Shown here: piece by piece, positions 47,106 to 51,612 of the stretch
How the letters are laid out: the number at the start of each line of letters is the position of its first letter
Position numbering within the stretch: the stretch's first letter is position 1
DNA from: Sandaracinus sp.
GTDB lineage: Bacteria; Myxococcota_A; Polyangia; Polyangiales; Houyiibacteriaceae
Length of the DNA: 51,773 nt
Reading direction: 5' to 3'
NCBI GenBank assembly: GCA_002699025.1
Contig: PABA01000233.1
Coordinates: forward strand, 1 to 51,773
Translations under genes and position numbers: made by a program
Notes under the pieces: model-generated
What the model was told of the DNA's origin: nothing
The model's database searches: none
Seen by the model: only the letters and a program-made list of their open reading frames with translations

Positions 47106-48614
47106 ATGCGTCGCGCCCACTGGACCTTCCTTCTCTTCGCTGCCCCGCTCGTCCTCGCCGGATGCGGCCGCTCGACCCTCGTCGTCGACCTCGACGACGC
47201 CGGCACCTCGCGCCCGGACGTGGTGATCCCACCCGACTCGGACACGGAGTTCTGCGGCAACGGCTTCTGCGCCCCGACCGAGAGCTGCGAGCTCTGCGCC
47301 GCGGACTGCGGCGAGTGCCCGGACGTCTGCGGCGACGGCCTCTGCGCGGCGACGGAGGACTGCTCGACCTGCCCGGCCGACTGCGGGTTCTGCCGCGACT
47401 GCGGCGACGGCCTCTGCGAGGAGGACCTCGGCGAGAGCTGCGAGACCTGCCCCGCCGACTGCGGCGCCTGCGCCGGCTGCGGCGACGGCACCTGCGGGCC
47501 CAGCGAGAACTGCGCCTCCTGCGAGGAGGACTGCGGCGCCTGCGAGACTTGCGGCGACGGCACCTGCCAGCCCACCGAGGACTGCGCGAGCTGCGCCGCC
47601 GACTGCGGCTTCTGTGTGACCTGCGGCGACGGCACGTGCAGCGCCGGTGAGACCTGCTCGAGCTGCGCCATCGACTGCGGCCGCTGCGAGACCTGCGGCG
47701 ACGGCCGCTGCGGCGCCGGCGAGGACTGCGCGAGCTGCCCGTCGGACTGCGGCTTCTGCGAGACCTGCGGCGACGGCGCGTGCACGGAGAGCGAGAACTG
47801 CTCGACCTGCCCGGCCGACTGCGGCCGCTGCGAGACCTGCGGCGACGGCGAGTGCACCGACAGCGAGGACTGCGCCACCTGCCCCGAGGACTGCGGCCTC
47901 TGCGAGACCTGCGGCAACGGCCGCTGCGCGCCGAGCGAGGACTGCTCGACCTGCCCGCGCGACTGCGGCCTCTGCGAGTTCTGCGGCGACGGCGATTGCC
48001 AGCCGACCGAGAGCTGCTCGAGCTGCCCGGGCGACTGCGGCGCCTGCCGGACCTGCGGCGACGGCTTCTGCCGGGCCGAGGACGGCGAGGACTGCCTCAC
48101 CTGCGCCGCCGACTGCGACGCCTGCCCCGAGTGCGGAGACGGAACCTGCGACCCGGGCATCGAGAACTGCTCGACCTGCCCCGCCGACTGCGGCGCCTGC
48201 GTGGGCTGCGGGGACGGCCGCTGCCGGCGCCCCGAGGACTGCGCGAGCTGCCCCGCCGACTGCGGCGTGTGCTCGGTCTGCGGCAACGGGGTCTGCGAGG
48301 CCGAGGAGTTCGAGTCCTGCGTGAACTGCCCCGGTGACTGCGGCGCCTGCCCGGGCGTGACCTGCATCGAGGTCGCCACGTGCATCTTCGGCTGCGTGGA
48401 CTTCGAGGGCGACCCGCCCCCCGACTTCTCCTTCACGTGCATCGGCGACTGCTCGGCGCGGGCCTGCGCGGACGTGCGCTTCTTCGTGGACGAGGTCATC
48501 AACTGCGCCGTGGAGCAGGTCTTCACCTGCGGCGACCTCGACTGCGTCATGCGCGAGTGCCGGGAGGAGATCGCGGCCTGCATCGGCGCGCCGCGCTGCC
48601 CGCCCGGCGGCTGA
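47106..48614 (+). CDS. Lipoprotein with 15 six-cysteine repeats
   Basis: A 502-residue lipoprotein (signal ending LVLAGC). From residue about 49 to 418 there are 15 tandem repeats of 24-27 residues, each with six Cys in the order CGDG-x-C-x(3-6)-E-x-C-x-x-C-x-x-DCG-x-C; a few have GN for GD. This gives about 90 Cys in the repeat region, presumably all in disulfides. The last 80 residues form a different Cys-containing domain (IEVATCIFGCVDFE, INCAVEQVFTCGDLDC). Function is unknown; a rigid surface stalk or metal-binding role is possible. CAGGAG precedes ATG 47106. Confidence 0.9.
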   Translation: MRRAHWTFLLFAAPLVLAGCGRSTLVVDLDDAGTSRPDVVIPPDSDTEFCGNGFCAPTESCELCAADCGECPDVCGDGLCAATEDCSTCPADCGFCRDCGDGLCEEDLGESCETCPADCGACAGCGDGTCGPSENCASCEEDCGACETCGDGTCQPTEDCASCAADCGFCVTCGDGTCSAGETCSSCAIDCGRCETCGDGRCGAGEDCASCPSDCGFCETCGDGACTESENCSTCPADCGRCETCGDGECTDSEDCATCPEDCGLCETCGNGRCAPSEDCSTCPRDCGLCEFCGDGDCQPTESCSSCPGDCGACRTCGDGFCRAEDGEDCLTCAADCDACPECGDGTCDPGIENCSTCPADCGACVGCGDGRCRRPEDCASCPADCGVCSVCGNGVCEAEEFESCVNCPGDCGACPGVTCIEVATCIFGCVDFEGDPPPDFSFTCIGDCSARACADVRFFVDEVINCAVEQVFTCGDLDCVMRECREEIAACIGAPRCPPGG

Positions 48615-48923: not shown

Positions 48924-48958
48924 ACACAAATATATCAATCGATATGTTTTATTCGTGT
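48924..48958. promoter_or_regulatory. AT-rich imperfect palindrome
   Basis: ACACAAAT (48924-48931) and ATTCGTGT (48951-48958) are inverted with one mismatch, flanking TATATCAATCGATATGTTT. About three quarters of the 35 bases are A or T, in a genome where most stretches are over 70% GC. It lies roughly 90 bp upstream of the sigma-factor promoter. Confidence 0.5.
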
Positions 48959-49028
48959 GAACCCGATCGTGGAAAGCCCAATGGTTTCGGCTCGAACGGT
49001 CCGGCGCCCCTTGTCGTTCCAGAACACT

Positions 49029-49085
49029 CGGTCTAGAAACCCGGTTGACGCAGGGGGGGCGCGGGCGTAGAAACGTTCTAGACCG
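49029..49085 (+). promoter_or_regulatory. Candidate promoter with flanking TAGAAAC/CGGTCTAGAA operator
   Basis: TTGACG (49045-49050) and TAGAAA (49068-49073) are separated by 17 bp, a good sigma-70-type promoter pointing at the sigma-factor gene (ATG 49120). CGGTCTAGAA (49029-49038) and its exact reverse complement TTCTAGACCG (49076-49085) flank it. TAGAAAC is also repeated directly (49034 and 49068), and TAGAA-ACG-TTCTA (49068-49080) is a small palindrome over the -10. This looks like an operator overlapping a promoter. Confidence 0.6.
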
Positions 49086-49119
49086 ATTGGTCCAAAACGC
49101 CTCGACCCGAAGGGCTGCC

Positions 49120-49644
49120 ATGACCACCGCCACCGCCACCGCCACCCCCGCCACGCTCGACGCCGCGACCATCCGCGAGCTCGAGCCCTCCCTCCTCCGC
49201 TACGCCCGCCAGCGCGTGGGCAAGGACGAGCTGGCCCGCGACCTCGTGCAGGAGACCTGGGTCGCCGCGATGAAGGGCATCTCCTCCTTCGCCGGCCGCT
49301 CGAGCCTGAAGACCTGGCTCGTCAGCATCCTCCGCCGGAAGATCGTGGACATGCACCGCCGGAGCCGCCCGCAGGTGAGCTTCGAGGAGCACCACACGCC
49401 GCCCTTCGAGAGCCCGCGCGAGCGCCTCGACGACCTGGCCGCCGTCGACATGGTGCACAAGGAGCTGGTCCACCTGCCCCGGCGCGAGCGCCAGGCCGTG
49501 CAGCTGGTCGACGTCGAGGGCCTGGACCGCATCGAGGCCGCCGAGCGCATGGGCGTCAACCGGAGCGCGCTCCGCGTCATGCTGCACCGCGGCCGGCACC
49601 GGCTGAAGGCGAAGCTCGAGGCGGCCGACCACGCCATCCGCTGA
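49120..49644 (+). CDS. ECF-like RNA polymerase sigma factor
   Basis: A 174-residue sigma-70 family protein of the ECF type. Region 2 is seen in ARDLVQETWVAAMKGISSF and SSLKTWLVSILRRKIVDMHRR; region 4 in LPRRERQAVQLVDVEGLDRIEAAERMGVNRSALRVMLHRGRHRLKAKL. ATG 49120 is used. There is no anti-sigma factor or zinc-finger gene next to it: the following gene is on the other strand and encodes YjbQ. An unusually structured promoter lies upstream. Its target genes are unknown. Confidence 0.9.
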   Translation: MTTATATATPATLDAATIRELEPSLLRYARQRVGKDELARDLVQETWVAAMKGISSFAGRSSLKTWLVSILRRKIVDMHRRSRPQVSFEEHHTPPFESPRERLDDLAAVDMVHKELVHLPRRERQAVQLVDVEGLDRIEAAERMGVNRSALRVMLHRGRHRLKAKLEAADHAIR

Positions 49645-49690: not shown

Positions 49691-50101
49691 TCAGCCCTGG
49701 ATCGTGACCGTCACGCGCCGGTGGTGGCGCGCGTGACGGTGCTCCCAGAGGTAGACGCCCTGCCAGGTGCCGAGATCGCAGCGGCCGCCGCTCACGGGGA
49801 TCGTGAGCGAGGTCTGCGTGAGCGCGGTGCGCACGTGCGCCGGCATGTCGTCGGGCCCCTCGGCCGTGTGGACGAAGATCCGGTCGCCGTCCGGCACCAG
49901 GCGCGCGAAGAAGGCGTCGAGGTCGCGCTGCACGTCCGGGTCGGCGTTCTCGTTGATGATCAGCGAGGCGCTCGTGTGGTGCACGAAGACGTGGCAGAGG
50001 CCCGCCTCGATGCCGGCCTCGCGGGCGACGCGCTGCACCTCGCCGGTGATCTCGTAGAGGCCGCGTCCCCCGGTCCGGACCTCGAGCTTCTCCGCGTGCA
50101 T
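49691..50101 (-). CDS. yjbQ: YjbQ family protein (secondary thiamine-phosphate synthase-like)
   Basis: A 136-residue protein of the YjbQ/UPF0047 family (usual length about 140). Conserved motifs are VFVHHTSASLIINENADPDV, HTAEGPDDMPAH, and the C-terminal DLGTWQGVYLWEHR. The family has weak thiamine-phosphate synthase activity in E. coli; its main role is uncertain. ATG 50101 overlaps the upstream stop codon by one base (TGATG), so it is translated together with the hotdog gene. Confidence 0.92.
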   Translation of the reverse strand: MHAEKLEVRTGGRGLYEITGEVQRVAREAGIEAGLCHVFVHHTSASLIINENADPDVQRDLDAFFARLVPDGDRIFVHTAEGPDDMPAHVRTALTQTSLTIPVSGGRCDLGTWQGVYLWEHRHARHHRRVTVTIQG

Positions 50102-50589
50102 CACGCCTCGCTCCCCTCTTCGCCCGTGATGCGCATCCACATCGCGCTCTGATCGCTCTCGTAGACGAGCGTGTCGCCCTGGGTGAAGCGGAAGCGGTAG
50201 CGCGCGAAGCAGCGCTCGGCTCCCTTCCGTTGCTTGGTCGCCTGGCCCTCGAGGATCAGCGGCTCGCCCGGCTCGGCGAGGGCGCGGAAGCGCGCGTCGT
50301 GGATGCGGCCGCCGTAGCCGATCCAGCCATCCGCGTGGCGCAGGTCGAGGACGTAGTAGGCGTGGACGAAGCCCACCATGCCCGTCATGTGCACCATCAG
50401 CCCGCCGCTCACGTGCCGCGGGTGATAGAGCGGGTGGGCGCGCTGCTCGCGGGTGAGCGGCAGCTCGGCGTGGGTGGGCATGCGCACGACGACGCGGCTC
50501 CGGTCGCGGTCGACCTCGAGGAGCTCGTCCAGCAGCAGGCCACCGGGGCCGTAGGGGCAGTCGTCGACGAAGGCGGGGTCGAGCGGCAT
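50101..50589 (-). CDS. Hotdog-fold (FabA/FabZ-like) protein
   Basis: A 162-residue protein. The pattern PYGPGGLLLDELLEVD, then HPLYHPRHVSGGLMVHMTGMVGFVHAYY, then IGYGGRIHDARFRALAEPGEPL, matches the FabZ/FabA-like hotdog fold used by acyl dehydratases and thioesterases. I do not see the exact FabZ catalytic His-Glu pair, so activity is uncertain. It is the first gene of a two-gene unit with yjbQ and is divergent from the potassium channel gene, 93 bp away. Confidence 0.75.
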   Translation of the reverse strand: MPLDPAFVDDCPYGPGGLLLDELLEVDRDRSRVVVRMPTHAELPLTREQRAHPLYHPRHVSGGLMVHMTGMVGFVHAYYVLDLRHADGWIGYGGRIHDARFRALAEPGEPLILEGQATKQRKGAERCFARYRFRFTQGDTLVYESDQSAMWMRITGEEGSEA

Positions 50590-50682: not shown

Positions 50683-51612
50683 ATGGGCGCCGACCGGACC
50701 CCGTCGAGCTCGAAGAGCAGCGCCCGCTTCATCGGGCGCGATGGGCAGGTCGTAATGATCGAGCGCATCGGGATCGAGCGCGCGCGCTTCAGCGACCTCT
50801 ATCACCGCTTCTTGACGGTCCGCTGGCGCTGGTGGCTGCTCGGCGTGGTGCTCGGCTACGTGCTGCTCAACGCGAGCTTCGCGCTCGCCTACCTCGCGCT
50901 CCCGGAGTGCATCGAGGGCGCGCGGCCCGGCCACTTCGGGGACGCCTTCGCCTTCAGCGTCCAGACCTTCAGCACCATCGGCTACGGCGCCATGTCGCCG
51001 GCGGGCATGTACGCGAACACGATCGTGACCCTCGAGGCGATCGTGGGCCTGCTCTACCAGGCGCTCGTCACGGGCCTCGCCTTCGCGAAGTTCGCCCGGC
51101 CGACGGCGCGGGTGATGTTCACCGACAAGGTCTGCATCACGACGCACGAGGGGAAGCGCGCGCTGATGGTGCGCATGGCGAACGAGCGGGCGAACCAGGT
51201 CGTGGAGGCGACGCTCAGCCTGACGCTCCTCGTGGACACGGTGACCTCCGAGGGCGGGCACATGCGCAAGCTGCGGGAGCTGAAGCTGGTGCGCCCGAGC
51301 ACGCCGGTGTTCTCGCTGAGCTGGACGGCGATCCACCTCATCGACGAGGAGAGCCCGCTCCACGGGGAGACCCGGGAGAGCCTCGAGGCGAAGAGCGCGC
51401 AGCTGCTCGCGACCTTCGTGGGCACGGACGACACGTTCAACCAGGTCGTGCACGCGCGCTCCGCCTGGTCCGTGGACGACTTCGCCTGGGACCACCACTA
51501 CGCCGACATCATCCTCTTCCGTGAGGACGGCGAGCGGGTGGTGGACTACCGGCGCTTCCACCAGCTCGTGCCGGACGACGCCCCGCGCGAGGCGCGGCCG
51601 CGGGCGAGCTGA
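50683..51612 (+). CDS. KirBac-type inward rectifier potassium channel
   Basis: A 309-residue channel subunit. The first membrane helix (WWLLGVVLGYVLLNASFALAYLA) is followed by a pore helix and the selectivity filter TIGYG (98-102), then the second helix (TIVTLEAIVGLLYQALVTGLAFAKF). The conserved FAKFARPTARVMFTDKVCIT leads into a cytoplasmic Ig-like domain of about 160 residues that gates the pore in KirBac proteins, tetramers in the inner membrane. ATG 50683 is in frame with the N-terminal cytoplasmic slide helix. The C-terminus is complete within the window. Confidence 0.93.
   Translation: MGADRTPSSSKSSARFIGRDGQVVMIERIGIERARFSDLYHRFLTVRWRWWLLGVVLGYVLLNASFALAYLALPECIEGARPGHFGDAFAFSVQTFSTIGYGAMSPAGMYANTIVTLEAIVGLLYQALVTGLAFAKFARPTARVMFTDKVCITTHEGKRALMVRMANERANQVVEATLSLTLLVDTVTSEGGHMRKLRELKLVRPSTPVFSLSWTAIHLIDEESPLHGETRESLEAKSAQLLATFVGTDDTFNQVVHARSAWSVDDFAWDHHYADIILFREDGERVVDYRRFHQLVPDDAPREARPRAS

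Follow-up and report, generated by a model that had tools for sequence, protein, structure and literature searches.

An orphan ECF sigma factor gene is preceded by a sigma-70-type promoter in which a 16-bp palindromic dyad, kept at the same spot in six orthologs, lies over the expected transcription start site; we predict this dyad to be most likely the operator of a TetR-family repressor. The gene lies in a 51.8-kb stretch of DNA, called here the window as a whole, and the assembly to which the window belongs (9.24 Mb) is labelled G000. A preliminary description of the window had already proposed that the promoter is covered by a specific operator and that the sigma gene is probably controlled by transcriptional repression. 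Both proposals are supported, the former by the conservation of the dyad and the latter by the conserved dyad over the promoter together with the lack of an adjacent anti-sigma gene.

The sigma gene, its neighbours and its promoter

The features of the locus are the following.

47106..48614, + strand: conserved neighbour, 502-aa Cys-rich repeat protein, putative lipoprotein, no Pfam match
49020..49035, no strand: O1, upstream dyad, degenerate in G000 (CAGAACACTCGGTCTA)
49029..49038, + strand: CGGTCTAGAA, left arm of the repeat in the preliminary description, equal to the right half of O1 plus flank
49045..49050, + strand: -35 box TTGACG, with TTGAC invariant in six orthologs
49068..49073, + strand: -10 box TAGAAA after a 17-bp spacer, with the (C/T)A start kept among orthologs
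49076..49085, + strand: TTCTAGACCG, right arm of that repeat, equal to the left half of O2 plus flank
49079..49094, no strand: O2, main predicted operator TAGACCGATTGGTCCA, over the expected transcription start, in 6/6 readable orthologs
49120..49644, + strand: gene of the 174-aa ECF sigma factor, with Sigma70_r2 and Sigma70_r4_2 domains
49691..50101, - strand: YjbQ/UPF0047 family gene, not an anti-sigma gene
50101..50589, - strand: weakly FabZ-like protein gene, likewise no anti-sigma gene

The sigma protein matched PF04542 and PF08281, both past the cut-off, and TIGR02937 with 91.8 bits. Containing regions 2 and 4 only, and with a length inside the range of about 170-200 aa, it is an ECF (group 4) sigma factor. 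A linked anti-sigma factor is encoded by an adjacent gene, usually in the same operon, and none is present here, as the preliminary description had observed: the neighbours are the Cys-rich, YjbQ/UPF0047 and weakly FabZ-like protein genes, all three of which recur next to the sigma gene among the orthologs. The Cys-rich protein is composed of CGDGxCxxxExCxxCxxDCGxC repeats after a lipoprotein-like N-terminal start; any functional tie to the sigma gene would be putative. Considered as a target of the sigma factor, the Cys-rich gene was rejected, the DNA upstream of it having neither the shared operator nor a clear ECF-type promoter.

Other features were observed in the same genome. Positions 50683-51612 of the window encode a potassium channel of the bacterial inward-rectifier (Kir) type (PF17655, PF01007), and an AT-rich island (ACACAAATATATCAATCGATATGTTTTATTCGTGT) with an imperfect inverted repeat lies at 48924-48958, within 74% GC DNA, and is not conserved among the orthologs. 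Another short ECF sigma gene of G000 (L132:284-1752, contig C138) and a TetR gene some 360 bp from it are divergently oriented.

The promoter had been described as TTGACG-17-TAGAAA, flanked by the arms CGGTCTAGAA/TTCTAGACCG, with TAGAAAC present twice and a TAGAA-ACG-TTCTA palindrome over the -10; all these letters and coordinates are right. CTAG is uncommon, as had been stated, with 7 occurrences in the 51.8 kb of the window against about 44 expected, two of the seven being at the sigma promoter. In the genome search that had been proposed for arm pairs, CGGTCTAGAA occurs twice in the 9.24-Mb assembly, once per strand, and nowhere except at the sigma promoter. Perfect 10-bp inverted-repeat pairs with a loop of up to 60 number 59 in the window versus about 32 in Markov shuffles; among the window's pairs, arms of 50% GC or less are found only at the sigma promoter, and the shuffles yield none.

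The 10-bp pair is not the operator unit for which it had been taken, as its conserved parts are only the half-sites of 16-bp dyads. A further dyad, O1, is located before the -35 box, and the 10-bp repeat is therefore made up of one half of each dyad, the right one of O1 and, facing it, the left one of O2. The limits of the element had also been misread: O2 runs past the assumed end (49085), and O1 begins before the assumed start (49029). Furthermore, the importance attributed to CTAG is not borne out by the orthologs, which carry TGGACC/GGTCCA, and the palindrome over the -10 is not common to them.

Conservation of the dyad among orthologs

Whole-genome searches identified orthologs 69-79% identical to the sigma protein in G015, G010, G006, G007, G014, and G002, and the matching records in the named genome collection are Myxococcota MAGs. 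The promoter in G002 is unreadable because the gene starts at a contig end; the six readable promoters are thus those of G000, G015, G010, G006, G007, and G014. Only two blocks stand out from the otherwise diverged upstream regions of these six: TTGAC and a 16-bp dyad with the consensus TRGACCRNNYGGTCCA, the two being separated by 17 bp and the -10 hexamer. The spacing is nearly fixed: the dyad begins 5 nt after the -10 hexamer in G000 and G006, 3 nt in G007 and G014, and 1 nt in G015 and G010. As the dyad begins 1-5 nt past the -10, the start site is expected to fall within it.

The upstream dyad is less regular. O1 is perfect in G015 and G006, has one mismatch in G010, is degenerate in G000, and is absent from G007 and G014. 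The promoter had been called "operator-wrapped", which is only partly right because two of the six readable orthologs have no upstream copy, while O2 is present in all six. The G005 copy (52% identical) has TTGACA-17-CATATT followed 1 nt on by TTGACCGACCAGTCAA. In G009, where the genes around the sigma gene are related, no dyad can be recognised; this and the missing O1 copies count against the control proposed below.

Each genome has a few exact dyads, a frequency similar to that of a reversed control pattern, as would be expected if the palindrome stood by chance beside an unregulated promoter. Among the other dyads of these genomes, those retrieved lie inside or border predicted coding frames, except for one before an MraZ-like gene of G000, which is intergenic. 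Against chance, six orthologs belonging to at least four genera share both the dyad and its position. Moreover, a composite pattern (TTGAC-N22-31-TRGACCNNNNGGTCYA) searched in 183 genomes of the order, with reversed patterns as controls, gave 14 matches versus 4 for the controls, and we regard a fortuitous palindrome as very improbable.

The letters TGGACC-N4-GGTCCA could also pair in RNA, as a 6-bp stem with a 4-nt loop, and the palindrome could then act as a hairpin in the mRNA leader. The first half of such a hairpin would be largely untranscribed because the expected start is inside O2; O1 lies upstream of the promoter, and the dyad centre retains R-NN-Y symmetry. These features speak against a hairpin, and a role as an RNA structure is hardly credible.

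The putative regulator

Six of the 14 composite matches are the promoter of the sigma gene itself. The dyad precedes a TetR-family gene by 11-28 bp in G004, G091, and G097, and in G038 a small gene lies between the dyad and a TetR gene; the remaining four matches are inside predicted coding frames, at about the background rate. Since promoter plus dyad is otherwise found mainly beside TetR genes, O2 is most likely a TetR-family operator. In G004, G091, and G097, then, TetR genes are likewise preceded by a GACC-N4-GGTC dyad over a promoter, as would be expected of a TetR operator. The boxes of NemR (TAGACC-N4-GGTCTA) and RutR (TTGACCA-N2-TGGTCAA) have the same core, their letters being unconfirmed in a literature search; the evidence for the TetR type of the dyad is the composite search, independent of these boxes. 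As a separate observation, the dyad of G091 (L329:1534-2611) precedes an AcuR-like TetR gene, and a second dyad lies between this gene and a bacterial-globin gene.

The GACC-N4-GGTC core also appears in the twin boxes of a different, orthologous TetR group (G000 C221:2261 and relatives), whose TTGACCNNNNGGTCAA boxes lie 30 bp apart in five genomes, with weaker forms in G006 and G005. The group is present in all seven genomes (7/7) with an operator-bearing sigma gene, and gave no match in G002, G003, and G009. At the loci L147, L211, L225, L335, and L336 the boxes are upstream of the TetR gene, which is apparently self-regulated. Because the outer half-site differs, the group remains only a candidate regulator of the sigma gene, and a weakened one.

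TetR_N loci were scanned for a matching site in G000 and G006 (every locus that passed the threshold) as well as in G010, G015, and G014 (many loci), and none was found. No sigma-type box was present within about 1.2 kb of the TetR genes of G000 (44) or G006 (21), which counts against a TetR repressor, as many TetR proteins repress their own gene. The best site in the scan, TCGACCGGGTGGTCTA, is 38 bp before a TetR gene of G014 (L219) and is not a match. No high-identity orthologs of the box-bearing TetR genes were found in G000, the comparison of recognition helices gave nothing usable, and the TetR list of G000 has no TetR_N match on contig C6, in the neighbourhood of the sigma gene.

The lack of a box-bearing TetR in the same genome would also agree with O2 being a real operator of another regulator family, such as MarR, or of a protein with a dual role, activating at O1 and repressing at O2. 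Consistent with the MarR version, four paralogs of the sigma gene (G007 C35, G014 C81, G002 C36, and G003 C114) have a MarR-family gene directly upstream. These MarR relatives, however, gave no match in the operator-bearing G006 and G005, the MarR operon promoters of G007 and G014 share a different sequence (GTTGACACGA-N3-TCGTG), and the box found at O2 stands before TetR genes elsewhere; this reading seems unlikely, though it is the strongest of the alternatives considered. The MarR-sigma loci themselves (L061:102-1165, L060:5133-6163, L062:3926-5195, and L311 on G003 C114) could represent an operon type, and the two genes overlap by 4 bp in G014.

Returning to the TetR-type operator, we propose as the probable mechanism that the sigma gene is read from a housekeeping-type (sigma-70) promoter, and that an unlinked TetR-family dimer, bound to the 16-bp O2 across the start site, would block RNA polymerase and keep the gene off. 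Where O1 is present, a second dimer upstream of the -35 box may strengthen or modulate the repression. An inducing ligand, as the presumed signal, would free the repressor from the DNA, and the newly made sigma factor, having no anti-sigma partner nearby and presumably none acting from a distance, would be active immediately.

Related sigma factors, their partners, and known systems

In three other families of the order, homologous sigma factors 45-49% identical (G037, G046, and G041) have an overlapping downstream zf-HC2 anti-sigma gene; they are alike to the window's gene in the sigma factor and unlike it in this partner, which the window's gene does not have. By the preliminary description, a sigma-binding anti-sigma partner encoded elsewhere would speak against its reading; the profile of the zf-HC2 partners found no match in the window's genome. 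The existence of these partners in homologs leaves room for an unlinked anti-sigma factor as the main control, with the operator merely tuning the amount of sigma factor; such unlinked factors may escape a sequence search, and marginal profile matches were obtained in G015 and G006, with values of 1e-6 to 2e-3 in G002. Set against this, the same profile reaches 1e-33 to 1e-37 in genomes with a linked gene versus nothing at E 0.01 in G000, G010, G007, and G014, and we judge control by a distant anti-sigma factor to be quite unlikely.

Another paralog (G002 C472; L075:4849-6507) directly follows a TetR gene that has the same orientation. Repressor control of the orphan sigma gene is therefore supported by the lack of an adjacent anti-sigma gene, the null profile result in G000, the paralogs placed beside MarR and TetR genes, and the conserved dyad. 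It had been suggested that repression replaces control at the protein level: the repression is in agreement with our results, and the replacement is proposed rather than observed because no cognate TetR repressor was found.

A tentative extension of this scheme, which we consider somewhat less probable than its opposite, is that one ECF clade has swapped control modules (zf-HC2 gene, upstream MarR gene, adjacent TetR gene, or bare operator with an unlinked TetR), so that control of synthesis may have taken over from sequestration, perhaps on more than one occasion. The tree groups the partner labels (anti-sigma, MarR, and TetR) without giving their order or the direction of exchange.

Many ECF sigma factors have no anti-sigma partner, and their control is unknown. 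A defined and conserved operator allows a direct test of how one of them is controlled, and comparison with its close relatives, which have an anti-sigma, MarR, or TetR gene next to them, can show how one sigma family shifts between protein-level and transcriptional control. The gene is found in a group of uncultured myxobacteria and encodes a stress-type sigma factor, for which a DNA-binding repressor may do the usual job of an anti-sigma factor.

Compared with the GACC-N4-GGTC operators of TetR regulators (those of NemR and RutR, and the boxes of G004, G091, and G097), the site described here has the same 16-bp dyad, core, and promoter position; it differs in its presumed control of a sigma factor gene and in having no TetR gene next to it. 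Transcriptional control is a described class for ECF factors without an anti-sigma partner, with ECF32 HrpL, ECF39 SigE, and ECF114 SigH as examples, and for ECF203 control by TetR was predicted from the TetR genes in its neighbourhood (PMC8999054). The window's gene is like these transcriptionally regulated factors in having no adjacent anti-sigma gene, in its predicted control at the sigma promoter, and in the proposal of a TetR regulator. Compared by type of control and not by sequence group, it is unlike ECF203, which has TetR genes in its neighbourhood, whereas here a conserved operator is present and no regulator is linked. The class itself is already known; what distinguishes this case is a conserved operator without a linked regulator, along with relatives that have other partners.
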